From a virus, in IMG/VR virus record IMGVR_UViG_3300022752_003381, positions 1-29,886 of that record: a stretch of 29,886 nucleotides of DNA; one strand, given 5' to 3'. A program made the translations under genes and the position numbers. This document shows positions 9,494-29,746 of this stretch, one piece after another. The notes beneath the pieces are model-generated. The model was not told the DNA's origin and ran no database searches. It saw nothing but the letters and a program-made list of their open reading frames with translations. Positions within the stretch are counted from its first letter, which is position 1. Every line of letters begins with the position of its first letter.

Positions 9494-12157
9494 TTAGAAA
9501 TCTAGGTGTAATTGACCTTTCCGTGCTAGACCATTTACTAACCACACAAGGGCATCCGCGCAATCATCATGACTACTTACGCCGAAGTTCGTGAGTTCCT
9601 CGAAGAGATTTGTGAAGTTCCTAAATCGATTAAAGATTATTTTTCTATCTTCAAACATACCCATAATACCGCGAAACCTTGCAAGCTTATCTGCACGGAA
9701 ACCTTTGACGGGATGCCACAAAATATTGTAGAGACCTTCTTGATTTAAACAAACTCTTTTGAAGTCTGCTTCCAGGGATGCCTGGTACTGTACAGCTTCA
9801 GACCATATGTCAACTGTTGCAAAAGTCGGGAAGTAATTATTGTTTTCATCTTTACCAAGAATAGACCAATCGTTAAGAAGTTCTTTAAGTACGTCAAGTT
9901 TTTCTAGATTTCCCATGACTCGTATTCGTCTGTAATCAATGATATGAATCTGATCGCCTATACGTCCACCTAGTACCATAACGGTGTAATCATTCTTTTC
10001 TTTGACACCAGCAGATAGGTCAACACCAACGCCAAGAGTATCAAACTCCGTTGCAATTTCTGCTTTAACTATTAGTTCTGGTGCCAAGGAAAGTTCATTT
10101 TGTCTAACGATTTGATTCATGTATTGGAAAGAGAAAGCAATAGGTGCCTGTCGTTTCTTTTCCTTTAAATATTCCAAAGACCACATTGCAGGCCAATAAG
10201 ACTCTTCTTCTCCTGTTATGCGATTGTGCTTAATTGCAGGAAGAACAATCTGCATCCAATTATTTTGTTCATTAAAAGTTGTCGCATGAATGTCATCATG
10301 TCGGAAGCGTGTACCAAGACATATTGCTCGTGCACCTTCAAACATAGTAGGTGCGATCACAGCGTTCCAGTTCTCTTGCATTTGTTTTCTAATGTCTGGA
10401 TTTGAAATATCTGCCGAACTTTTTATGGCGTCATCTATCATTACTAAATGAGATCGTTTGGAGGTAACTGAACCCTTAAGTCCTGCAGCACAGAGTGTAA
10501 ACTGTTCATCACCAGTTGTGTCAATACCCGCAAAGCGATGATCTATTGACCAGTATTCATTACTAGTTACGTTTTTCATTAAGCGTACAGTAGGAAAAAC
10601 TTCTTGGTATCGTTTACTTTCAATGATGCGTTTGATAGTAGCACTTTTGGATCGTGCAATATCAACTGTGTATGACAAGTAAAGAATTTGTAAAGGACGT
10701 TTAGCTTTAGTGTGAATACCAATAGCCCATGCTGTAAGTAAACCCAAGACTGTGCTTTTGGCTGAATTTTTACTGACGATATAATCTTTTGTTAAGAATG
10801 TATGACACTCATCTTGAACTTCTATACAACGTACCTTTTCTTCAAACGAAGGTTTAATATCTATAATGCCACGGCAAGGAAGGTATTTAGTACAAGGAGC
10901 ATACCTCAGTGCTTTACGCTTCAAGGAGAACGGTCTAATCTCAGGGTGTAGTTTTATTCCTACCTTGTAAGACGGTGTTGTTGTACGTGTTTTTACTCCG
11001 TTGGGCAGTGTATAAGAATTGAACTGTGCAGTACGTCTAGTTGCAATACCTCCTAATGATTGAACTAGTTCAATAATGTTATCTACAAGTTGCTGAGATG
11101 TAGTACAAAAAGAAACAGAACCAGAACTAGATACCGTGCCGTCCGTATCAAGTAAACCTTGTAGCAACGCCTCACGATCAGCAACAGAAGAAAATAAGTA
11201 TTCTTTTGGAATAAATTTTGATACTGATGTTTTTCCGTACAAGCCAAGCTTTTCGAGATTTCTTTTTACAGGATTTGGTACCCCACAAAAAAGACTACCT
11301 TTAATATGCGAAATACGATAATCGTATTTGGAAGCCTTCTTGAACGTGTAGTCTTTAGGTAAAAGTTGAGAGCAACGTTCAATCAATTCTGAATCGGAGC
11401 TAGTTATTGTTAGATTTCCACTGCTTAAGCAACCATCTCCAATTAAAACACCAAGTAGATATGGATCAATTAAAAGTTCTTTTTCTGGATATTGTACTGG
11501 TTCCGTCACAGGAATATAGTAACGAGCGTAGCCCTTGCTATCTAGCCAAGGTTTTTCTTCTGGTGAACAAGTAGCAGTAATACGTTTACTTGGAGAACCA
11601 ACTTTACCGTTTCCTTTTATTCCAATTGTTTTTTGTGTACGAATTTCATTAAGAGACATGACACGCCATTCACCTTTGGCATCAGAACCTATGCGCCGTA
11701 CCTTCCATAAATGTTGATCGTCACAACGTACGGATGAACCATCTGTATAGGATATTTCCCAAGTTGGAGACGATGCATAATCGGATATGTTAATTACTTC
11801 TGTAACTTGTCCTTTCTCAGAAAAAACTAAATCACCTAATTGTAAATCACCGATGGGCACCCATCCGTTAGGAGTTGCTACTGGCATTGAAATGGCAAGT
11901 GGTCCCCTTGGTGCCAATAGATCGACGTTTGGTCCAGCAATGTGTAGAAGGCAGCTACTGTTTTCTTCTGTTATGAAATGTTTATGCCATTCCAGGTGAT
12001 GTTCAGCAGGAGGCTTGTCAGCTACGTATTCACAAAAAAAACCAAAGTCTTCTTGCGCAAACTTAAGAGCATCTACATTCTTGGGTATACGTATTTGTTG
12101 ATTCCGCGCAGCGGCTTTTGCATTACGTCGATAAGCAAGGTGTGTATAGCTAGGCAC
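9494..12157 (-). CDS. terL: Terminase large subunit (packaging ATPase/nuclease), intein-containing
   Basis: 887 residues including a 379-residue intein; the spliced protein would be 508 residues, normal for TerL. The start is a GTG at 12157. Once residues 86-464 are removed, the Walker A loop becomes APRGSAKST (82-85 joined to 465-469). Walker B is LVMIDD (571-576). The nuclease domain shows GVDLSAG (711-717), a second acidic site at VDIW (782-785) and HDDCADA (863-869). TerL cuts concatemeric DNA and pumps it through the portal. The intein splits the ATP-binding loop, so no active motor can form until splicing. The small-subunit candidate lies upstream and psbA follows directly. Confidence 0.93.
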   Translation of the reverse strand: MPSYTHLAYRRNAKAAARNQQIRIPKNVDALKFAQEDFGFFCEYVADKPPAEHHLEWHKHFITEENSSCLLHIAGPNVDLLAPRGPLAISMPVATPNGWVPIGDLQLGDLVFSEKGQVTEVINISDYASSPTWEISYTDGSSVRCDDQHLWKVRRIGSDAKGEWRVMSLNEIRTQKTIGIKGNGKVGSPSKRITATCSPEEKPWLDSKGYARYYIPVTEPVQYPEKELLIDPYLLGVLIGDGCLSSGNLTITSSDSELIERCSQLLPKDYTFKKASKYDYRISHIKGSLFCGVPNPVKRNLEKLGLYGKTSVSKFIPKEYLFSSVADREALLQGLLDTDGTVSSSGSVSFCTTSQQLVDNIIELVQSLGGIATRRTAQFNSYTLPNGVKTRTTTPSYKVGIKLHPEIRPFSLKRKALRYAPCTKYLPCRGIIDIKPSFEEKVRCIEVQDECHTFLTKDYIVSKNSAKSTVLGLLTAWAIGIHTKAKRPLQILYLSYTVDIARSKSATIKRIIESKRYQEVFPTVRLMKNVTSNEYWSIDHRFAGIDTTGDEQFTLCAAGLKGSVTSKRSHLVMIDDAIKSSADISNPDIRKQMQENWNAVIAPTMFEGARAICLGTRFRHDDIHATTFNEQNNWMQIVLPAIKHNRITGEEESYWPAMWSLEYLKEKKRQAPIAFSFQYMNQIVRQNELSLAPELIVKAEIATEFDTLGVGVDLSAGVKEKNDYTVMVLGGRIGDQIHIIDYRRIRVMGNLEKLDVLKELLNDWSILGKDENNNYFPTFATVDIWSEAVQYQASLEADFKRVCLNQEGLYNILWHPVKGFRADKLARFRGIMGMFEDRKIIFNRFRNFTNLFEELTNFGVSSHDDCADALVWLVNGLARKGQLHLDF
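10766..11902 (-). other. Intein with LAGLIDADG homing endonuclease, class 3-like
   Basis: Covers TerL residues 86-464. It begins with Pro1 (PLAISMPVATPNGWVPIGDL) rather than Cys or Ser and ends YIVSKN before extein Ser. Block B reads DDQHLW, giving His at B:10 and Trp at B:12 (intein residue 66). Block F reads VRCIEV, giving Cys at F:4 (residue 359) where Asp is usual. G:5 is Ser (377), the penultimate residue is Lys, not His, and the last is Asn379. Trp, Cys and Ser/Thr at these places are the signature of class 3 inteins, which use the block F Cys as first nucleophile. Two dodecapeptides, LLGVLIGDG (TerL 234-242) and LLQGLLDTDG (331-340), mark a homing endonuclease. Confidence 0.9.
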
Positions 12158-21940: not shown

Positions 21941-22219
21941 ATGATCGACCTAACTTCTGGTTGGGTGCAACACTCAGTCGTCTCTGGTGGTTGGCATCTG
22001 GAATATGTTGATCCAGTTGTTGGATTTGACATCTCCATCGTGACCGGACCGAAAGGTTCCGGATTGATGGGCGTTATAGCTCCAGGGCAACCAACGACCT
22101 ATGAAGCCTGGTTACCAGGATTATCTAATCCTACGGGTTACTTAACCTTGGATGAAATACGTGGCATCATCATGTATCTTCGCGAGAAACATCGTGATGA
22201 CACTATGTATGCAAACTGA
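21941..22219 (+). CDS. Unknown small protein behind family 1 leader A
   Basis: 92 residues from the ATG at 21941 (MIDLTSGWVQHSVVSGGWHL). An ATG 12 nt upstream is in frame, but the downstream one has GGAGAG 5 nt before it and sits at the same distance from the pseudoknot as in copies B and C. The protein looks like a small beta-rich fold, with Gly/Trp-rich N-terminus and a C-terminal helix (TLDEIRGIIMYLREKHRDD). No family recognised. Its TGA stop is the first base triplet of the next leader element. Confidence 0.6.
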   Translation: MIDLTSGWVQHSVVSGGWHLEYVDPVVGFDISIVTGPKGSGLMGVIAPGQPTTYEAWLPGLSNPTGYLTLDEIRGIIMYLREKHRDDTMYAN

Positions 22220-22291
22220 TCCGTAAAAGCGGGTGACCAGGTGCAAACCCTGGTCCAGCTATTGCCTAGTCCGCAGGAGATGGGCACCTGC
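22217..22291 (+). ncRNA. Family 1 structured leader, copy B
   Basis: Starts on the TGA of the gene before. Three parts follow: a small hairpin (ATCCG with CGGGT), a perfect 7-bp hairpin (GACCAGG with CCTGGTC, loop TGCAAAC, 22235-22255), and a pseudoknot in which GCCT pairs with GGGC and GCAGG (22273) pairs with CCTGC (22287). The last pair differs in sequence from copies A and C but keeps complementarity. It ends 14 nt before the ATG at 22306. Confidence 0.65.
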
Positions 22292-22305: not shown

Positions 22306-22500
22306 ATGGGCATTCGCTCAGGTTTAGTCGCAGCTATTCGCAATGGTGTAGCCGTTGCACGGATGGAGTTTGATGCTGGCTTAGCTCAGCACAATGCGGA
22401 GTACGAACTCCGTCAGATTAAGGCTAGACAACAACAACTTGATGCACGTATTACAGGAGATTATATTCCTGTCTCAAATGTACGTGTGACTAATAGCTGA
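22306..22500 (+). CDS. Unknown small helical protein
   Basis: 64 residues, ATG at 22306 without SD. N-terminus MGIRSGLVAAIRNGVAVARM is a mildly hydrophobic basic helix. The centre (HNAEYELRQIKARQQQLDAR) is a charged helix able to form a coiled coil. It is framed on both sides by family 1 leader elements, and its TGA is part of copy C. No family recognised; a host-takeover or accessory protein is plausible from size and context only. Confidence 0.55.
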   Translation: MGIRSGLVAAIRNGVAVARMEFDAGLAQHNAEYELRQIKARQQQLDARITGDYIPVSNVRVTNS

Positions 22501-22568
22501 TCCGTTAAAGCGGGTCCGGAGGTGCAAACCCTCCGGCAGTAATTGCCCCCAGCGGAGATGGGCACCGC
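22498..22568 (+). ncRNA. Family 1 structured leader, copy C
   Basis: Begins on the TGA of the preceding gene. Hairpin ATCCG/CGGGT, then a perfect 7-bp hairpin (CCGGAGG with CCTCCGG, loop TGCAAAC, 22516-22536), then the pseudoknot GCCC/GGGC and GCGG/CCGC. The second stem sequence differs from copies B and D while the loop is unchanged. The element ends 17 nt before the ATG at 22586. Confidence 0.65.
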
Positions 22569-22585: not shown

Positions 22586-22747
22586 ATGACAACGTACCAA
22601 CAGCTTCGCCAGTATTTTACAGAACAGGAGTTAGATGACGCTGCAGTTATTGCACGTCACTCCCAACAACACTTTCCAGGTAGCACTTATGCCGAAATCT
22701 TTATTGAGGTCTTAGTACAAATGCGTGCATACCCAGTAACTAGCTGA
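22586..22747 (+). CDS. Unknown 53-residue protein
   Basis: ATG at 22586, TGA at 22745. Reads MTTYQQLRQYFTEQELDDAA, then VIARHSQQHFPGSTYAEIFI, then a short helix ending RAYPVTS. A compact helical protein with no SD, placed exactly between family 1 copies C and D. Its last codons and stop match the pattern of the other genes in this set (AGC TGA), as if the stop were supplied by the downstream cassette. No family recognised. Confidence 0.55.
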   Translation: MTTYQQLRQYFTEQELDDAAVIARHSQQHFPGSTYAEIFIEVLVQMRAYPVTS

Positions 22748-22824
22748 TCCGTTAAAGCGGGTGGGCAGGTGCAAACCCTGTCCCAGTTATTGCCAGGTAA
22801 CACTGGCATTAATCTACACCACCT
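22745..22824 (+). ncRNA. Family 1 structured leader, copy D (variant)
   Basis: Begins on the TGA of the gene before. Hairpin ATCCG/CGGGT, then a 7-bp hairpin (GGGCAGG with CCTGTCC, one G-T pair, loop TGCAAAC, 22763-22783). The pseudoknot region has diverged but can still form: TGCC (22791) with GGCA (22805), and AGGT (22795) with ACCT (22821). It ends 7 nt before the ATG at 22832. Confidence 0.55.
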
Positions 22825-23166: not shown

Positions 23167-23571
23167 ATGTTTAGCAACACCATCATCGGCAACATTACAT
23201 ACATGGAAGTTGCCGTCCATGAAGGCAAAGAGTTCCTTGCGATTACTGTCGCAGTGAACGATCGCTTCAATAGTAGCTGCCGCATTAAGTTTAACAACTC
23301 TAATGGGTTGTTAACTGCATACATCAACAAGACACTTGTTGTAGGGCAACAGCTTATCCTGTCCCAGTATGACGTTCGGATTGACAAAATCAGAACGCAC
23401 TACCTAAAAGACGGTAAGATGTTGGCACTCAAGTGTCCTGAGTTGACACTGACTGGAGTACGTGCAACCATTGGCGCTTTACCAAAGGCTGCTAATGGTA
23501 CTGCACCAAAACCCACAATCAGTGCGGCACTAACAGAAGATCTTGAGTTAGAAGAAGCACTAGCTGTTTGA
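23167..23571 (+). CDS. OB-fold, SSB-like single-stranded DNA-binding protein (putative)
   Basis: 134 residues from the ATG at 23167; the frame is open further upstream, but that part lies in the family 4 leader. The order of elements fits a single-strand binding OB fold: FSNTIIGNITYMEVAVHEGK then EFLAITVAVNDRF (compare the AVN.RF strand of SSB), a central loop, LLTAYINKTLVVGQQLILSQ, then strands to about residue 108. The tail is acidic (ALTEDLELEEALAV), as SSB tails often are. It would coat phage single-stranded DNA during replication. No SD is present. A decayed copy of its 3' end lies 353 bases downstream. Confidence 0.5.
   Translation: MFSNTIIGNITYMEVAVHEGKEFLAITVAVNDRFNSSCRIKFNNSNGLLTAYINKTLVVGQQLILSQYDVRIDKIRTHYLKDGKMLALKCPELTLTGVRATIGALPKAANGTAPKPTISAALTEDLELEEALAV
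23513..23540 (+). repeat. Source copy of a 28-base near-direct repeat
   Basis: Inside the SSB-like gene, encoding TISAALTED. Twenty-five of 28 bases match 23866-23893. All three differences are C here and T there. Confidence 0.75.
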
Positions 23572-23865: not shown

Positions 23866-23893
23866 CCACAATTAGTGTGGCACTAATAGAAGA
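23866..23893 (+). pseudogene. Fossil of the SSB-like gene's 3' end
   Basis: Matches 23513-23540 at 25 of 28 bases. In the corresponding frame it reads KSTISVALIEDYEP beside KPTISAALTEDLEL in the intact gene. There is no start codon or leader, so it is a remnant, and it lies directly before a family 2 leader. The stretch can also fold (ATTAGTG with CACTAAT). Confidence 0.65.
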
Positions 23894-23901
23894 CTATGAA
23901 C

Positions 23902-23931
23902 CTTGGCATCCACTCGTGGTGTAAGTCCAAG
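23902..23931 (+). ncRNA. Family 2 structured leader, copy 1
   Basis: Outer stem CTTGG with CCAAG. Inside it the conserved GGCA, a short hairpin (CCA, loop CTCG, TGG) and the conserved GTAAGTCC. It ends 29 nt before the ATG at 23961. Outer stem bases differ from copies 2-4 but stay complementary. Confidence 0.65.
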
Positions 23932-23960
23932 ATTCACCTACTCATATATAAGTTTTACTT

Positions 23961-24062
23961 ATGTCCCGTAGGTGTCTAAGCCTTGTCCTTCTTATGTCCG
24001 TACTTGTCATGACAATGTACAGACACTGTCTACTTTATCCTTCACATCTATTTACATCATGA
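23961..24062 (+). CDS. 33-residue hydrophobic peptide
   Basis: ATG at 23961, TGA at 24060 overlapping the ATG of the next gene (ATGA at 24059-24062), so the two are coupled. Sequence begins MSRRCLSLVLLMSVLVMTMY, a basic start followed by a hydrophobic helix long enough to enter a membrane. It stands at the same distance from the family 2 leader as the first genes of the other four units, which is the main reason to call such a short frame. No SD. It may itself be a leader peptide for the next gene. Confidence 0.45.
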   Translation: MSRRCLSLVLLMSVLVMTMYRHCLLYPSHLFTS

Positions 24063-24307
24063 CTATTCAAGAAGCTTTCCATGCATGGTTGAATACATGT
24101 CCTGCAACAGACTATGAATTACTGTCAGTAGGCGATAATTGTATTACTTATAACTTTAGATTTCCTACTGAAGAACCAGAGTATGCAGAAGAATATACCG
24201 CAGATCAAATTGACTTCCTCTCTGACATTGCTGATGAGCAAGAGAAGATTATGAGGGAAGAAATGCCTGAACCTACTATGGAGTATCCTATTGGAACACA
24301 CGCCTAG
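24059..24307 (+). CDS. Unknown small acidic protein
   Basis: 82 residues from the ATG at 24059; the frame is open further upstream, but that part overlaps the 33-residue peptide and is not protein-like. Sequence begins MTIQEAFHAWLNTCPATDYE with a helix and strand pair, then a very acidic helix (about 45-70). The start overlaps the stop of the peptide gene by 4 nt, so translation probably reinitiates here. No SD of its own. No family recognised. Confidence 0.6.
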   Translation: MTIQEAFHAWLNTCPATDYELLSVGDNCITYNFRFPTEEPEYAEEYTADQIDFLSDIADEQEKIMREEMPEPTMEYPIGTHA

Positions 24308-24350
24308 TACATCAGTACTTACTGAGGATGACCTTATCCTTATTGTCATC
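24306..24350 (+). promoter_or_regulatory. Two-hairpin leader before the 24386 gene
   Basis: AGTAC pairs with GTACT (24306-24319) and GATGAC with GTCATC (24327-24350). The second ends 35 nt before the ATG at 24386, close to the spacing seen for family 2, but its sequence is unrelated. No SD follows it. Confidence 0.35.
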
Positions 24351-24385
24351 ACACTCATTTCCATCCTTATTACAGAACTATTATC

Positions 24386-24724
24386 ATGCTTCACCCCATC
24401 ACTCAAGAAATCGCTGCAACTTTCGGTTACGAACCCTTCGATTCAGAAGAGGGGCAGCAACAGTACCAAGCAGAGTGTGACTTCCAGAACGCACCAAAGG
24501 GAGCAATCCCTTGCACTGGTAACGTTTACAGAAACAAACGGGGAGTCCTTAGGTGTTATTGGATTCCCGTCTACGAAGACAAAGAACTCGAAGGTTGGTA
24601 CGACATCCCAACCAATGAAGAAATTGAGGAGTGGTCGTTCGATAGCGTCTGTTTCACCCCAGGTGACGACGAGGTTGAACCTGACCACCCAGATAGTTGG
24701 TTAACAATTCTTGGTTTGATCTAA
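24386..24724 (+). CDS. Unknown acidic Trp/Tyr-rich protein
   Basis: 112 residues, ATG at 24386, no SD. Sequence opens MLHPITQEIAATFGYEPFDS and is rich in Asp, Glu, Trp and Tyr; a beta-rich centre (GVLRCYWIPVYEDKELEGWY) is followed by an acidic tail. Strongly negative small proteins of this kind are often inhibitors or DNA mimics in phages, but no motif here proves that. Two other frames across the same bases are also open. This one has the most protein-like composition and the expected leader spacing. Confidence 0.6.
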   Translation: MLHPITQEIAATFGYEPFDSEEGQQQYQAECDFQNAPKGAIPCTGNVYRNKRGVLRCYWIPVYEDKELEGWYDIPTNEEIEEWSFDSVCFTPGDDEVEPDHPDSWLTILGLI

Positions 24725-24760
24725 ATCAAGTATTGTTTGACTACAAGAAACTACCAATAC

Positions 24761-24792
24761 CTGGGCACCCATCATCATGGGGTAAGTCCCAG
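24761..24792 (+). ncRNA. Family 2 structured leader, copy 2
   Basis: Outer stem CTGGG with CCCAG, conserved GGCA, inner 5-bp hairpin (CCCAT with ATGGG, loop CATC), conserved GTAAGTCC. It ends 30 nt before an ATG at 24823. Confidence 0.7.
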
Positions 24793-24822
24793 TGTTACCT
24801 TATCTTGTCTGCATTTAAAATC

Positions 24823-24993
24823 ATGATTTCATTTATGTGCTCCAGTGTTGCATGTTTATTCCAATATCTTGGAGCAGGTTATATAACAATGCCTTTAAGC
24901 GGTGGTTTTATTTATAGTACCTATGACAAACAGAATTATCACTGTAAACAATCAAGTGAATTAATAAGGTGCCAACTTATAAACACACCTTAA
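24823..24993 (+). CDS. Small hydrophobic Cys-containing protein (tentative)
   Basis: 56 residues, ATG at 24823. Begins MISFMCSSVACLFQYLGAGY, a hydrophobic stretch that could be a membrane anchor or a signal sequence, followed by a polar Cys/Lys/Gln tail. The frame is open further upstream through the family 2 element; the start is chosen because it stands 30 nt after that element, as in the other units. No SD. It ends 2 nt from the stop of a convergent minus-strand gene. Confidence 0.45.
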   Translation: MISFMCSSVACLFQYLGAGYITMPLSGGFIYSTYDKQNYHCKQSSELIRCQLINTP

Positions 24994-24995
24994 AG

Positions 24996-25607
24996 TTAAC
25001 GTAACATATTCATTAAAGCTTGTCTACCTGCTGATGGAACACCCGGTACATTAGCTGGGTTTAATTTATACAATTGATTTAAAACTTCTGGTGGTAATGG
25101 TGTATCAATAAAGTTTTGACTATTAGGACGCATATCAATTACATCTTTTCGTATAGAAGTATTTAGTTTTTCTTGATCAGGATTATACGGTCGTTCATTA
25201 CCTGGTATATAAGTATTCTCTATACTAGTTTGTGGATTTTTATTACCAAATCTAAATTTTAATTCAGCTCCAGGATCTTTACCTGTCTTTAAATTAAGAT
25301 TAAAATTTTTACCTAATGAAACACTTGCAGTTCCACTTAAAGGATTAATAGTAAAACCTTGGTTATCTTCATCTCTTGCATTGATTCCTGTTCTACCACT
25401 TAGTAATTGGTAAACCTCACCAACAGGATTAGAAGAATTATTATTAACCATTAGATCACTAATGCTAGGCATAAAACTAGCAAGAGGATTGTTTACATTA
25501 TTAGGAGCTTTAAAATTTCCTGGATTAAATCCCATCATATTACCATCGCTATTTCCCATAGATTCCATTAGCTGTTTATTTAAAAATTCTTGAAAAAAAT
25601 CTCCCAT
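24996..25607 (-). CDS. Lone minus-strand virion-like protein
   Basis: 203 residues, ATG at 25607, no SD. Rich in Asn, Pro, Gly and Met, and AT-rich in codon use. Begins MGDFFQEFLNKQLMESMGNS; the centre has a beta-hairpin-like stretch (ASVSLGKNFNLNLKTGKDPG), and the end is a Pro/Asn/Leu-rich helix. Composition matches the late minus-strand genes left of 21 kb, not the plus-strand small genes around it. It faces opposite to every neighbour and shares its 3' end region with the 24823 gene. No family recognised; a displaced structural gene is likely. Confidence 0.65.
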   Translation of the reverse strand: MGDFFQEFLNKQLMESMGNSDGNMMGFNPGNFKAPNNVNNPLASFMPSISDLMVNNNSSNPVGEVYQLLSGRTGINARDEDNQGFTINPLSGTASVSLGKNFNLNLKTGKDPGAELKFRFGNKNPQTSIENTYIPGNERPYNPDQEKLNTSIRKDVIDMRPNSQNFIDTPLPPEVLNQLYKLNPANVPGVPSAGRQALMNMLR

Positions 25608-25643
25608 TTAACAATACTTTATGTGTGTATATTTATTATAACT

Positions 25644-25680
25644 CTGGGCATCTGCTACTCTGTAGTGGTATAAGTCCCAG
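25644..25680 (+). ncRNA. Family 2 structured leader, copy 3
   Basis: Outer stem CTGGG with CCCAG, GGCA, a 7-bp inner hairpin with two G-T pairs (CTGCTAC with GTAGTGG, loop TCT), then ATAAGTCC. A TATAAC box lies just before it (ending 25642), so transcription might begin close to the element. It ends 32 nt before the ATG at 25713. Confidence 0.7.
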
Positions 25681-25712
25681 ATATCTAATCAAACCTTAAC
25701 TTCTTATTCAAC

Positions 25713-26000
25713 ATGACTATCACTACACCACACATCAATGAATACACTGTTCTTGAAGGTATTCTCAAAGACCTCAAGGCTATTGTAATCAGAGAAAGCA
25801 AGCGTCCACAAGGATGTGAAGACCTCACACCTTCTATGCTTGCTCTTCTAGAAGAAGAAATCATTCCTCAACTAGAAAATGAACTTGACTACGATCCAAC
25901 ACCTCAATACCTGTATGACAATACAGGGGGTGAATTACCAATAACAGCTAATGAAATGTATGAGATAGCAAGAGCTCACTCAAAGCTATTGCATTCTTAA
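25713..26000 (+). CDS. Unknown acidic helical protein
   Basis: 95 residues, ATG at 25713 in an SD-less A/C/T-rich context, 32 nt after a family 2 leader. Helical, acidic and soluble: MTITTPHINEYTVLEGILKD at the start, a central helix (MLALLEEEIIPQLENELDYD), then ANEMYEIARAHSKLLHS at the end. No membrane or catalytic motif. No family recognised. It ends 7 nt before the family 3 element that leads the next gene. Confidence 0.6.
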   Translation: MTITTPHINEYTVLEGILKDLKAIVIRESKRPQGCEDLTPSMLALLEEEIIPQLENELDYDPTPQYLYDNTGGELPITANEMYEIARAHSKLLHS

Positions 26001-26007
26001 ATTACAT

Positions 26008-26035
26008 GTCCTAAGCATGACATTAAACTGCCTAC
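26008..26035 (+). repeat. Family 3 leader, copy 1
   Basis: Twenty-six of 28 bases match 27661-27688. A stem can form (TAAGCA with TGCCTA, one A-C mismatch) around an 11-nt loop TGACATTAAAC. An ATG lies inside (26017) and opens a frame, but the same ATG in copy 2 gives only 8 codons, so it is part of the element. It ends 20 nt before the ATG at 26056. Confidence 0.6.
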
Positions 26036-26055
26036 ATCCCATTGCACTTGAACTC

Positions 26056-26421
26056 ATGCTTACAGCATCCACAACAAGTCTCAAAGAGACCACAAAGACA
26101 ATAGAAGATCGTATCGACGGTCTTATTTCAAAGTTAATTAATGACTTTGAAAAACAATATCCTAGTCGCTACGGAGTCAAAACCTTCGAGGTTAATAAAG
26201 GTAATAAATATTACAAAATAATTGAAGTAACTCAAAATGTAGGTTTAAATGACGGTAGAGCAGTCCATGCTTTTGTTAATAGACAAACAGGTGCTGTATA
26301 CAAACCAGCAGACTGGAAGTCTCCGGCTAAACATGTAAGATACAATCTACTAGACGATGCATCCTATGCAGAATGTCTAGAGCGTGCCGACTGGGCAGGA
26401 GGTTATCTATACATAAAATAA
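26056..26421 (+). CDS. Conserved small phage protein of unknown function
   Basis: 121 residues from the ATG at 26056. The frame is open to an ATG at 26017 (134 residues), which I reject because it lies in the family 3 repeat. An N-terminal helix (about 1-40) precedes a compact domain with KYYKIIEVTQNVGLNDGRAV, then AFVNRQTGAVYKPADWKSPA, and a C-terminal ADWAGGYLYIK. The VYK.A.WK.PAK...GG.LY layout is one I recall from many small phage proteins of unknown function. No SD. Cytoplasmic by sequence. Confidence 0.7.
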   Translation: MLTASTTSLKETTKTIEDRIDGLISKLINDFEKQYPSRYGVKTFEVNKGNKYYKIIEVTQNVGLNDGRAVHAFVNRQTGAVYKPADWKSPAKHVRYNLLDDASYAECLERADWAGGYLYIK

Positions 26422-26472
26422 CAACACACACTATGTATTCTAATAATGTCTTGACAATGTCCTGACATCTAT

Positions 26473-26506
26473 CCCCCCTTGACCCCCCGTTGGGGTACCA
26501 GGGGGG
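26473..26506 (+). promoter_or_regulatory. Very stable GC hairpin in the 26613 leader
   Basis: Outer 7-bp stem CCCCCCT with AGGGGGG enclosing an inner 5-bp stem ACCCC with GGGGT. It stands out in an AT-rich 190-base gap. It lies 106 nt before the ATG at 26613, with no T-run after it. The shape (outer stem, inner hairpin) is like family 2 but the conserved bases are absent. Confidence 0.55.
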
Positions 26507-26612
26507 AACCTAATCTTCTATTAGTAATGTTAATGAATAACCTTTGTTAACATCTCTATCCATCCCTTACCTACCAAGTACACTACCTTAATCCAATCTC
26601 CAACCTATCAAC

Positions 26613-26825
26613 ATGACTTCATCTAATCTTCCCAACATTCCCAACTCAATAGCCACAGATCAACTACAAGCTATGGCCTTTGTAGCAAAGATGAAAGAAG
26701 CAGCTAACCGTGTAGGTGCTGGCTTCATTGGTGGCTTTGTCACACCAGATGGTAAGAAATTTGTTATGACAAACTTCTCAGATCAAACAGACATTGACAT
26801 GTTTCTACCCGAGGAACTGAAATGA
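26613..26825 (+). CDS. Unknown small protein
   Basis: 70 residues, ATG at 26613 preceded by A/C/T-rich sequence without SD. N-terminal disordered part (MTSSNLPNIPNSIATD), a helix (QLQAMAFVAKMKEAANRVGA), then a Gly/Phe-rich beta hairpin (FIGGFVTPDGKKFVMTNFSD). Its end overlaps the start of the next gene by 4 nt (ATGA), so both are made from one transcript. No family recognised. Confidence 0.6.
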   Translation: MTSSNLPNIPNSIATDQLQAMAFVAKMKEAANRVGAGFIGGFVTPDGKKFVMTNFSDQTDIDMFLPEELK

Positions 26826-27019
26826 CTAAACGTTCACTCATTAGTTTTGATCGCACCATCCATGGTGTAAACATAACTGAACATGGAGTCAAATCATTTA
26901 CCAAGTCAATTAAACTTGGTCCACTTCAACTAACTCTCAATGCCAATCCCAATGGTGTCAAAGGATCTTTTAGTATCCCTGGCACAGGACTAAGCATTCC
27001 AAATATTAAATTAATGTAA
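26822..27019 (+). CDS. DUF4236-like small protein
   Basis: 65 residues, ATG at 26822 with GAGGA about 9 nt upstream, one of the few SD sites on the plus strand. Residues 25-60 resemble DUF4236: FTKSIKLGPLQLTLNANPNG then GSFSIPGTGLSIP, with the typical SIK.GP...N...G and GTGLS motifs of this all-beta family, whose function is not known. Coupled by ATGA overlap to the gene before it. The assignment is by pattern only. Confidence 0.55.
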   Translation: MTKRSLISFDRTIHGVNITEHGVKSFTKSIKLGPLQLTLNANPNGVKGSFSIPGTGLSIPNIKLM

Positions 27020-27023
27020 AGAT

Positions 27024-27062
27024 CTGGGCATTACCGACGCCAACTCGGTGTGTAAGTCCCAG
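27024..27062 (+). ncRNA. Family 2 structured leader, copy 4
   Basis: Outer stem CTGGG with CCCAG, GGCA, an inner 5-bp hairpin (ACCGA with TCGGT), then GTAAGTCC. It starts 4 nt after the preceding stop and ends 33 nt before the ATG at 27096. Confidence 0.7.
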
Positions 27063-27095
27063 AGGAAACAACCATTCCACCTCACCTCAATTAGT

Positions 27096-27299
27096 ATGAC
27101 ACCTTCTGAATTCCACCGGCTTACCGATCTAATGCAACAGCATGGCGGTAAGTTTATACAAAGTCTTGCTGTTGCATTACGTTATGCTGATCCTATTAAC
27201 AGGCAAAAGATTCTAGATTCTTTTCCAGATCTTGTACTTGAGTATGGACCTACGTCTATGTTCAATGCGCCCATTCGTCAACCTATGGAGGTAATCTAA
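27096..27299 (+). CDS. Unknown small helical protein
   Basis: 67 residues from the ATG at 27096, 33 nt after a family 2 leader and without SD. The frame is open upstream through the leader, which I reject as coding. Helical: MTPSEFHRLTDLMQQHGGKF, then SLAVALRYADPINRQKILDS, with a short tail. Its stop overlaps the next start as TAATG. No family recognised. Confidence 0.6.
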   Translation: MTPSEFHRLTDLMQQHGGKFIQSLAVALRYADPINRQKILDSFPDLVLEYGPTSMFNAPIRQPMEVI

Positions 27300-27565
27300 T
27301 GTCAAACATTTCTGCTATAAGACATGTTGACGTTTATCCCGAAGGTGATAATGAATATCAAGTCTATGCAGAAGCATGGATAGAAGATCGTCTGCAGGTT
27401 AGTCCTGCCACATGGGAAGAACCAGCAGAACATAAACCTGGTCTGTGTTTTGCTTCTACATATGTAGAAGATAAACCACCTAGTGATCCATCAGATCTAG
27501 AGGAGTTTATCCATGAATTAAATCGTGGTAATTCTCTTGATTGGATTGATATTAGTTACACCTAA
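27299..27565 (+). CDS. Unknown small acidic protein
   Basis: 88 residues, ATG at 27299 with GGAGGT 8 nt upstream inside the end of the gene before. As second cistron of a coupled pair it has a normal SD, unlike the first cistron. Beta-rich and acidic: HVDVYPEGDNEYQVYAEAWI, then a Trp/Glu/Pro loop, and a helix DPSDLEEFIHELNRGNS. Cytoplasmic by sequence. No family recognised. Confidence 0.6.
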   Translation: MSNISAIRHVDVYPEGDNEYQVYAEAWIEDRLQVSPATWEEPAEHKPGLCFASTYVEDKPPSDPSDLEEFIHELNRGNSLDWIDISYT

Positions 27566-27660
27566 TCCTTCCATGCCTTAGGTTGTTAAAGATCAACATC
27601 GCACGCATTAAAACCGTTTTAGTACGTGTTGTTGAACAATTAATCACTAGTTTGTTTCGC

Positions 27661-27688
27661 GTCCTAGGCATGACGTTAAACTGCCTAC
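27661..27688 (+). repeat. Family 3 leader, copy 2
   Basis: Near-identical to 26008-26035. Perfect 6-bp stem TAGGCA with TGCCTA around loop TGACGTTAAAC. It ends 27 nt before the ATG of the PcfJ-like gene at 27716. The internal ATG runs only 8 codons. The 95 bases before it hold another weak hairpin (TAAAA, CCG, TTTTA, near 27610). Confidence 0.6.
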
Positions 27689-27715
27689 TACTTTAAATTC
27701 AACTCCGAACTTACC

Positions 27716-29437
27716 ATGCAATTTCAATTACCATCCAATCTTCAAACTGAACTGATTGCTTATGATCCACAGCTTAAAGCTTTGGCTCGTCAACAACATG
27801 CCAACAAACGTGTATCCAAAAAATCTAAGTACCCACTTGGTAATATTCCACACTTGATTCCGTATCGCATCGTACGTGAATCATTGCAACAGGATGCAAT
27901 TGACAACATTAATTCCAATACGGCACGCTATCGTTTTCAGAAATTTACAACGCCTGTGGATGTGGCAACTCCACAAGCTCGCCTTGCAATCAAAGCGATT
28001 CTCTACCATTACGAACAATGTTGGTACGCAGCATGGCTGCCAGCCAAAGGAGAAGACTATGTATATGGCTATGCCATTGCATTCAAAGACAATCCAAGCA
28101 CACGTAAAGTTTTAGCTCGTAACATTCTTGACAAGATTGAATTGTGTTCAGAGATTAGTGTTGGTCGTATCAAGTATTACATCTATCGCAAAGAAGTAAC
28201 AAAGCAAGACATTGCCAACGGCATGACTGATCACAACTGGCGTGCACATCATCTTTATAGTTATTATGAAAAGACTCGGGAAATGGCTCCAGTATTAGAT
28301 GAATTTCGCACTGAATTGCAGCAATCCATTCCTATCTGGGATGATCACCATGAACTATTCTCTCGTTTGCGTTGCACAGAAATCTGGCAAGCATTAGAGA
28401 TCAACAAAGATTTGATTCCAAAACACAAGCATGTGGGCTGGGAACTAACAGTTGATAACTTGCTGGAAGCAATCAACAGACGCAGTGAAGTGTACAAAGA
28501 TTCAGCTACATATCGAGATCTTGAACTGTCATATATCACCAAGTATTCACGTGTATTTAATACACCATTTTTTCGTAAGTGGATGCAACAAGAACTAAAT
28601 ACTTGCGTTGCTTATTACAATGATCCAGATAATCGTGCACACAAAGATGTTGTACGTGGTCTAAACCGTATTATTAAACTTGCTCAGTCAATTCATTATG
28701 TCGAACTTATTTGGCCTGATTGTCCTATTGATTACTACCAAAGCAACATTGAATTGTTATTGATGGTTCGGTTGATCAACAATCCAAACGAACGTTGTTG
28801 TGAATGGTTGCGTCAACACATGCCCGTTGCTTCTTTCTTTCACATTCTTAAAAAGTATGCCGAAGAAAATACAAACAATCCACGGGAGCGTATGCGTACC
28901 AACAGTGAAGAAACAGGTCTTCACGTGCTGTGGCTTACAGAATGGAATGACACGTTGTCAATGTTAAGACGTGTTCTTGATTCGGACAATATCATTGATC
29001 CACCTAAACGTTGGCGCTTGGTTGAGTTCCATGATTATGTTCAAGCTGAGTCTTGGAAAATTCAAAATCCAAATGAAAATCTGCCCCAAGATTTGTTCCC
29101 TGAACCTATTAAACTTCAGCATAACAACAAGTCATGGACATTTTTTCAGCCACATGACACCCACCAACTTGCACTCTGGGGTCAAGCTGTACGCAACTGC
29201 GTCGGCTCTGCCTCCGGATATGCTGAAGGTGTACGTAAGAAACAACACTTCATTGTGTTGTGCATGCTTGATGGCAAACCTCAGTTCACCATTCAACTCA
29301 AGGTATCAAATGGAATGATGTCCGTTGATCAAATCAAAGGACTTTGCAATTCCAGCTTGACGCTTGAACAAAAGGATGAGTACACGGAGGTGTTCCGTCT
29401 TGCTTTGCAAGCACGAGAGGAAATGTTAAAGTCGTAA
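27716..29437 (+). CDS. PcfJ-like protein
   Basis: 573 residues, ATG at 27716 without SD, after a family 3 leader. By far the largest plus-strand gene. The N-terminal 400 residues are helical and Trp/Arg-rich. The C-terminal ~100 residues carry the PcfJ-type domain: HQLALWGQAVRNCVGSASGY with the invariant Cys, then YAEGVRKKQHFIVLCMLDGK, FTIQLKV and DQIKGLCN. PcfJ-like proteins are named after a conjugative plasmid protein and occur widely on plasmids and phages; their biochemical role is not established. Its codons are close to its neighbours', so it is not a recent insertion. A hairpin follows the stop. Confidence 0.8.
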   Translation: MQFQLPSNLQTELIAYDPQLKALARQQHANKRVSKKSKYPLGNIPHLIPYRIVRESLQQDAIDNINSNTARYRFQKFTTPVDVATPQARLAIKAILYHYEQCWYAAWLPAKGEDYVYGYAIAFKDNPSTRKVLARNILDKIELCSEISVGRIKYYIYRKEVTKQDIANGMTDHNWRAHHLYSYYEKTREMAPVLDEFRTELQQSIPIWDDHHELFSRLRCTEIWQALEINKDLIPKHKHVGWELTVDNLLEAINRRSEVYKDSATYRDLELSYITKYSRVFNTPFFRKWMQQELNTCVAYYNDPDNRAHKDVVRGLNRIIKLAQSIHYVELIWPDCPIDYYQSNIELLLMVRLINNPNERCCEWLRQHMPVASFFHILKKYAEENTNNPRERMRTNSEETGLHVLWLTEWNDTLSMLRRVLDSDNIIDPPKRWRLVEFHDYVQAESWKIQNPNENLPQDLFPEPIKLQHNNKSWTFFQPHDTHQLALWGQAVRNCVGSASGYAEGVRKKQHFIVLCMLDGKPQFTIQLKVSNGMMSVDQIKGLCNSSLTLEQKDEYTEVFRLALQAREEMLKS

Positions 29438-29490
29438 AAGCTGAAGCTAGGTTGACCAGCTTTAGCCTTAATACTAGAGCTGGTCTTTTA
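29437..29490 (+). promoter_or_regulatory. Alternative hairpins after PcfJ-like gene; terminator or attenuator
   Basis: The segment GACCAGCTTT (29454-29463) can pair upstream (AAAGCTG at 29437 with CAGCTTT) or downstream (GACCAGCT with AGCTGGTC at 29478). The downstream stem is followed by TTTTA and ends just before the ATG at 29493. The two folds exclude each other. Confidence 0.5.
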
Positions 29491-29492
29491 CC

Positions 29493-29732
29493 ATGAACAA
29501 CAACTACACCGACGACCAACTGCTTGCCATGGCTATGGGAAACCTTGGAACTTTTATCGAAACAAATACAAGACATTACATTCTTGTAGAAGATGATCCT
29601 CGTAATGAAGATGACTATGACACATGGTTTTATGGTACTGAGCCAGTACCTGGTGACCAAACCTGGAAGACAGGTGCTATTGAAATTGATGCAACTACAA
29701 TTGATGATGCACTAATACTTGGCAGTGCTTAG
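29493..29732 (+). CDS. Unknown small acidic protein
   Basis: 79 residues, ATG at 29493, directly after a hairpin and without SD. Begins MNNNYTDDQLLAMAMGNLGT, continues with a strand-rich acidic middle (YILVEDDPRNEDDYDTWFYG) and ends DALILGSA. Highly acidic (many Asp and Glu, very few Lys or Arg), like the gene at 24386. Its last codons and stop lie inside the fifth family 2 leader. No family recognised. Confidence 0.6.
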   Translation: MNNNYTDDQLLAMAMGNLGTFIETNTRHYILVEDDPRNEDDYDTWFYGTEPVPGDQTWKTGAIEIDATTIDDALILGSA

Positions 29733-29746
29733 CACGTAAGTCCAAG
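29718..29746 (+). ncRNA. Family 2 structured leader, copy 5
   Basis: Outer stem CTTGG with CCAAG as in copy 1, GGCA, inner 4-bp hairpin (GTGC with GCAC, loop TTA), GTAAGTCC. It overlaps the stop codon of the preceding gene and ends 27 nt before the ATG at 29774. The TTCACCTACT that follows is also found after copy 1. Confidence 0.65.

Follow-up and report, generated by a model that had tools for sequence, protein, structure and literature searches.

Introduction

The RNase III sites of phage T7 are intercistronic stems with an asymmetric internal loop, located shortly before the next start codon, and the T4-type phages RB49 and phi1 carry PeSL cassettes, small intergenic elements in which a sigma70-like promoter is combined with a terminator stem-loop. 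Here we describe a small phage element, a hairpin with an invariant bulged core, which is present in five copies in a viral DNA stretch of 29,886 nucleotides (nt) (IMG/VR record IMGVR_UViG_3300022752_003381, positions 1 to 29,886, the whole of which is called the window) and in further viral loci, designated by L numbers. The source phage, of which the window is a fragment, has Synechococcus phage S-EIV1 as a relative (patches of about 72% identity), and the window contains a D1-like open reading frame (ORF) (psbA, judged from its translation). The five elements lie in a region of small plus-strand ORFs.

The element is similar in form to the T7 RNase III sites: it is also an intercistronic stem with an asymmetric internal loop shortly before a start codon, but its smallest copies have about 9-10 base pairs and it is also found before tRNAs and in non-coding arrays. 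Like the PeSL cassettes, it is a small intergenic stem-loop in regions of small variable genes, whereas it shows no promoter signal at a fixed position in 151 non-redundant copies and no terminator T-tract in the copies read. In the T4 homing-endonuclease leaders (I-TevI, SegB and Aeh1 MobE), the ribosome site is hidden on read-through transcripts and a late promoter lies inside the leader, according to the part of the published account used here (PMC2988022). L058, L090, L030 and phage S-SRM01 show a similar arrangement, with the element before a TATAAATA late-promoter-like sequence and an endonuclease-type gene. However, most copies, including the five of the window, have no pairing of the loop with the start region, no late promoter and no endonuclease, and the conserved bulged core is not seen in the T4 leaders described in that part of the account. 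Hepatitis delta virus (HDV)-like theta ribozymes adjoin phage tRNA genes in gut phages (PMC10879173). Our element is likewise a small RNA beside phage tRNA genes, but its consensus is a single bulged hairpin without a nested double pseudoknot, it has no Rfam ribozyme match and, unlike theta ribozymes, it is found mainly in cyanophages. Finally, manA, wcaG and PhotoRC-II are structured RNAs in potential leaders of cyanophage genes (PMC2864571), from which the element differs by being one small hairpin with a bulged core, to which Rfam gives no match in the window or related loci at an expectation value (E) up to 1.

The element is a covarying RNA hairpin

An earlier note on this DNA had reported five GGCA-hairpin-RTAAGTCC copies, all on the plus strand, with CTGGG/CCCAG outer stems in copies 2-4 and CTTGG/CCAAG outer stems in copies 1 and 5, and we found all of them as described (Table 1). 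The pattern GGCAN{8,38}RTAAGTCC matches the window six times, always on the plus strand (the five elements and an overlapping longer reading of the first), while 0.21 matches are expected in the shuffled window and none of 100 shuffles reached six. A covariance model, R1, was made from alignment A2, which holds 15 copies of other phages and no window sequence. R1 found the five window copies with E values from 3.7e-8 to 0.014 in an 884-kb search, and gave 201 copies in 90 loci and 120 matches in 57 further loci. Model R2, run without filters on the 29.9 kb, returned exactly the five window elements and nothing else at E up to 1; its seed alignment includes three window copies, and the independent test is thus R1. 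The first two broad viral scans, with 14 specified bases, gave mostly chance matches, which were then filtered by pairing.

The consensus is a hairpin of 26-60 nt in which the core, GG-CA-[U/G] ... UG-UAAGU-CC, is invariant and the stems covary freely. The outer stem of 5-7 base pairs ends with GG/CC; inside it, CA faces UG (or CG, UA), a 1-nt bulge (U or G) is located on the 5' side and a 5-nt unpaired bulge, UAAGU (UAAGC or UAAGA in a few copies), on the 3' side. The inner hairpin varies from one or two pairs closed by a tetraloop (GNRA or UUCG) to 10 or more pairs, and the smallest natural copies measure about 26 nt. RNAalifold prefers to pair the core C with the G inside UAAGU, which leaves a single bulged U; this pairing and that with the UAAGU bulge both fit, since those bases are invariant in that set.

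We observed that 92.9% of the cells are paired among 114 distinct sequences, compared to 73.4% after shuffling and 25-44% with slid partners. Compensatory changes, on both sides of the pair, occur at 9 of the 13 pairs, and the covariation score was reached by none of 500 shuffles; a second set of 99 sequences behaved alike. Since R1, and any alignment made with it, is biased towards the proposed structure, the independent test is a stem scan of raw sequence, performed on 2.9 million viral contigs with patterns that fix the core and the outer bases only. Matched outer stems were found in at least 120 stretches for CTGGG...CCCAG, 54 for CTTGG...CCAAG and 63 for CTAGG...CCTAG, versus 8 for the mismatched CTTGG...CCCAG and 1 for CTGGG...CCAAG. 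Because nothing else is fixed by these patterns, the large excess of matched stems indicates that the outer stem must pair. The claim of the earlier note that covariation reveals a structured RNA therefore holds in both wide alignments and stem scans.

In the 55 copies whose inner stem has two pairs and whose loop has four bases, the loop is GNRA in 20 and UUCG-like in 3, while about 2 GNRA loops are expected among 55 random ones (our own estimate, 1 in 32). These RNA-type tetraloops, together with the compensatory changes, point to the RNA level rather than the DNA level. In the orthologous leaders of major capsid genes the core is kept and the inner hairpin is mostly different, L290 and L315 sharing one. 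Folding energies of the window copies are clear in two cases (z about -3.5) and unremarkable in three (z about -1), so that the case for an RNA rests on covariation. Altogether, these data show a genuine RNA motif carried by cyanophages.

In the window, L058, L045, L087, L128 and L119, no family of Rfam 15 matches the element (E up to 1), in agreement with the earlier note, which had not recognised a known family; the Rfam hits listed for the window and related loci are unrelated weak matches or tRNAs. We found no description of the motif in the openly licensed papers searched, and a description elsewhere is possible. The motif is new to Rfam and to the literature searched and is classed with the intercistronic structured RNAs of phages, its function being putative.

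Several unrelated cyanophage lineages carry the element

The carriers that can be identified are mostly cyanophages of several unrelated lineages, namely S-EIV1-like, S-CBWM1-like, S-CBS3-like, T4-like and Prochlorococcus siphophage-like. The nearest isolate is S-EIV1 for the window, L264, L385 and L389, S-CBWM1 for L353, S-CBS3/S-CBS1 for L309, T4-like cyanophages for L058, and the Prochlorococcus phages MED4-117 and P-HS2 (distant similarity) for L436. When whole records were searched, S-EIV1 gave 3 matches, S-SRM01 1 and the single-cell virus AG-345-A17 2, and no match was obtained in S-CBS1, S-CBS2, S-CBS3, S-CBWM1, S-SKS1, MED4-117, P-HS2, S-CREM1, S-LBS1, S-CRM01, S-H1 and S-RIP1. A genome contains up to 10 copies, and many genomes contain one or two. 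A strict scan of 84,980 prokaryote genomes, limited to the commonest form of the element, gave three hits, none of them cyanobacterial by record title.

Copies lie at boundaries between RNA units

The stop codon of an ORF (at least 30 codons) lies at most 10 nt upstream of 118 of the 234 non-redundant copies, compared to 15 in antisense and 13 at random positions, and the gap between stop codon and element is 2-5 nt in 58 of the 111 copies with a defined upstream ORF. On the other side, the distance to the start codon is 25-34 nt in 66 of the 111 copies with a downstream ORF. An ORF start 12-60 nt downstream was found for 170 of the 234 copies, yet random positions gave 107 of 234; since start proximity is thus common at random positions too, the statistic on stop codons is sharper evidence. 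Family-wide, G makes up 5.9% of the 20 nt following the element in copies with a start codon 22-40 nt on. In the window, the distance to the ATG is short and narrow, as proposed before, with a range of 28-33 nt instead of 27-33 nt. There, the stop codon of ORF 26822-27019 lies 4 nt before copy 4, and copy 5 overlaps the 3' end of ORF 29493-29732, whose stop codon is within the loop of the copy.

The element had been associated with small genes, which is the case in the window, but elsewhere its copies are also found ahead of tRNAs, major capsid genes and repeated non-coding units. A tRNA, mostly tRNA-Leu(UAA), was found within 40 nt downstream of 24 copies, at 1-6 nt for 23 of them (counted on an earlier, partly redundant set of copies), with a typical gap of 1-4 nt. 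In Prochlorococcus siphophage-like contigs, the element stands at the head of tandem units, which are about 150 nt long and are each closed by another hairpin; no tRNA was found in the tandem arrays, and the array region of L436 contains no long ORF. Cargo genes have no common function and include the highly expressed major capsid genes. As the same motif is found before mRNAs, tRNAs and non-coding units, a role restricted to translation is unlikely as a general explanation: the element is not tied to translation alone, and the common denominator of its positions is the boundary between RNA units.

The arrays contain several units each and are located at L436 2916-3533 and also in L440, L443, L450, L451, L454 and L414. 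Their unit is made of the element, about 90 nt of AT-rich sequence and a hairpin, GCCTGT-ACTTAA-ACAGGC, with CAAGTT flanks. A gene of family phrog_4652 precedes the element both in L436 and in the S-CBS3-like locus L309. At L309 3706-3920 and in the L436 array units, a rough 5-nt rhythm (CGGCT CGGCT..., CTTGG TTTCG CTTGG...) was noticed by eye only after the element, in sequence that looks non-coding.

Two other candidate functions were rejected. As for a promoter, no conserved -10/-35 signal was found at a fixed distance upstream of the 151 non-redundant copies, where the AA enrichment just upstream fits stop codons, and base composition shows no T-run after the stem as in an intrinsic terminator, none of the five window copies being among the terminator-like sites listed.

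In T4-like phages the loop can pair with the start region

Some copies (L010, L030, L045, L058, L090, L115 and S-SRM01) have longer loops able to pair at or just before the start codon. Where it was computed, this pairing involves 10-15 bases, and its two sides differ in a matched way from locus to locus (L090, L030, L058 and S-SRM01); in the cultured phage S-SRM01, the whole arrangement lies at 77572-77670. In this T4-like subset, a TATAAATA-like late promoter lies between the element and the downstream gene; the downstream proteins of L058, L030, L090 and S-SRM01 have phrog_15526 in common, with a further match to the homing endonuclease family phrog_314 in L058 and L030. This agrees with the T4 scheme, in which the ribosome site is masked on read-through transcripts but accessible on late ones, according to the same part of the published account (PMC2988022). 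From their sequences, the T4-like copies are likely to act as a ribosome-site switch before a homing-endonuclease-type gene.

Over all copies, the longest loop-start pairing has a mean of 6.0 versus 5.5 after shuffling, an excess led by the T4-like copies, and the strongest pairings listed include none from the window. Loop-start-codon pairing was thus rejected as a general mechanism, being confined to the T4-like homing-endonuclease subset: it is a specialised use of the element and not its general role.

Features of the window

Table 1. Element copies and adjoining features in the window.
Feature	Position	Strand	Next ATG (distance)	Evidence
Copy 1: CTTGG-CA-U-CCAC/GUGG-UG-UAAGU-CCAAG	23902..23931	+	23961 (29 nt)	R1 E=3.7e-8, R2 E=3e-10
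Spacer, copy 1 to next start codon	23932..23960	+		sequence
Copy 2: CTGGG-CA-CCCAU/AUGGG-G-UAAGU-CCCAG	24761..24792	+	24823 (30 nt)	R1 E=1e-4, R2 E=9.6e-9
Copy 3: CTGGG-CA-U-CUGCUAC/GUAGUGG-UA-UAAGU-CCCAG	25644..25680	+	25713 (32 nt)	R1 E=0.014, R2 E=2.4e-4
ORF of 95 amino acids downstream of copy 3	25713..26000	+		no Pfam or PHROG match
Copy 4: CTGGG-CA-U-UACCGA/UCGGUG-UG-UAAGU-CCCAG	27024..27062	+	27096 (33 nt)	R1 E=9e-4, R2 E=8.6e-8
ORF of 67 amino acids downstream of copy 4	27096..27299	+		weak match to phrog_15317 (function unknown)
Copy 5: CTTGG-CA-GUGC/GCAC-G-UAAGU-CCAAG	29718..29746	+	29775 (28 nt)	R1 E=2.2e-4, R2 E=2.8e-6

The ATG that follows copy 1 opens only a 33-codon frame. Positions 23868-23888, just upstream of this copy, and 23515-23535 form a partial duplication of the end of an upstream gene; in the related L378, unlike at copy 1, the element stands 2 nt after a TGA. 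The upstream neighbour of copy 3 is divergent: an ORF of 203 amino acids (24996-25607, minus strand) runs against the direction of the small genes in an AT-rich stretch directly upstream of the copy.

The window also contains other repeats. A second leader motif (CCGTNAAAGCGGGT - hairpin - GTGCAAACCC ... CAGYWATTGCC) is located at 22213-22266, 22494-22547 and 22741-22794, with related copies in S-EIV1 at 43465-43790 (minus strand). A 28-nt repeat, GTCCTARGCATGACRTTAAACTGCCTAC, is 93% identical between 26008-26035 and 27661-27688, in the leaders of two ORFs; a similar stretch lies in S-EIV1 near 25880-25922 (minus strand), and this is perhaps a third leader motif. Farther away, at 9494-12157 (minus strand), an ORF of 887 amino acids is large-terminase-like, with a putative intein (Hint-like block), judged from its translation only.

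Discussion

The reading that we prefer, and hold tentatively, is that the element may be an intercistronic RNA processing or stability signal recognised by a factor that the hosts have in common; it is favoured by the fact that the copies have the boundary between RNA units as their common denominator. On this view, a trans-acting factor would recognise the folded core within the long polycistronic transcripts of the phage; since unrelated phage lineages share the motif, this factor would most likely be encoded by the picocyanobacterial host. A putative cut at or beside the core, or an RNase blocked at that place, would leave every unit (mRNA, tRNA or non-coding RNA) with a stable end of its own, while the G-poor, probably unstructured spacer would keep the start codon open to ribosomes. 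Cyanobacteria possess RNase E, RNase III, Mini-III and RNase J (PMC10989914). Several points weigh against this reading. The close spacing to stop codons could simply reflect compact genomes, and for window copies 1-3 the nearest co-directional stop codon is at least 36 nt away. An invariant 5-nt bulge is more than a generic RNase site or a stabilising hairpin would require, and the smallest copies look short for RNase III. The element is dispensable, since several isolates of carrier lineages do not have it, and the strict scan found the commonest form in no cyanobacterial genome, which is unexpected for a host-encoded reader with targets of its own.

Control of translation is the alternative that we considered next in weight, although it seems rather unlikely: the hairpin would bind a phage or host protein, repressor or initiation helper, and thereby control the gene about 30 nt downstream. 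The narrow distance to the start codon, the G-poor leader and, in T4-like copies, the pairing between the loop and the start-codon region of a homing endonuclease-type gene are consistent with it, but there is nothing to translate after the copies that precede tRNAs or head non-coding arrays, loops outside the T4-like copies rarely pair with the start region, and the cargo genes share no function. The large number of copies and the unrelated cargo also make a metabolite switch or riboswitch unlikely. That repeated copies serve as a decoy, titrating a host RNA-binding protein or RNase during infection, is improbable; the number of copies in some genomes, the tandem non-coding arrays of marine phages and a core as invariant as protein binding would require all agree with this idea, whereas many genomes have only one or two copies and a decoy could work without any set position between stop and start codons or immediately before tRNAs.

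The remaining explanations dispense with a protein reader or with the RNA itself. Use of the element as DNA only (hairpin promoter, recombination site or PeSL-like exchange cassette) could account for repeated intergenic copies among small variable genes and for nearby homing endonuclease genes, but the RNA-type tetraloops, the lack of a conserved upstream promoter hexamer and of a T-tract after the stem in the copies read, and the co-orientation with the upstream gene make it very unlikely. A small self-cleaving ribozyme able to release RNA units on its own, in the manner of the theta ribozymes beside gut-phage tRNAs, would suit the dense invariant core in an internal loop, the position next to tRNAs, the tandem arrays and the small size of the shortest copies; with no pseudoknot or known ribozyme core and no match among Rfam ribozymes, we regard it as highly improbable. 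Were the core catalytic, for which we see very little chance, it would be a natural self-cleaving RNA of down to about 26 nt cutting phage transcripts at the boundaries of genes and tRNAs in several unrelated cyanophage lineages.

The element adds a compact, very common and well-supported RNA motif, absent from Rfam, to the viruses that infect the principal primary producers of oceans and fresh waters, and it recurs in phages that have little else in common. Its presence in the cultured phages S-EIV1 and S-SRM01 makes it open to experiment. As its reader is probably a component of the picocyanobacterial host, the motif may offer a handle on the processing and stability of cyanophage RNA during infection.

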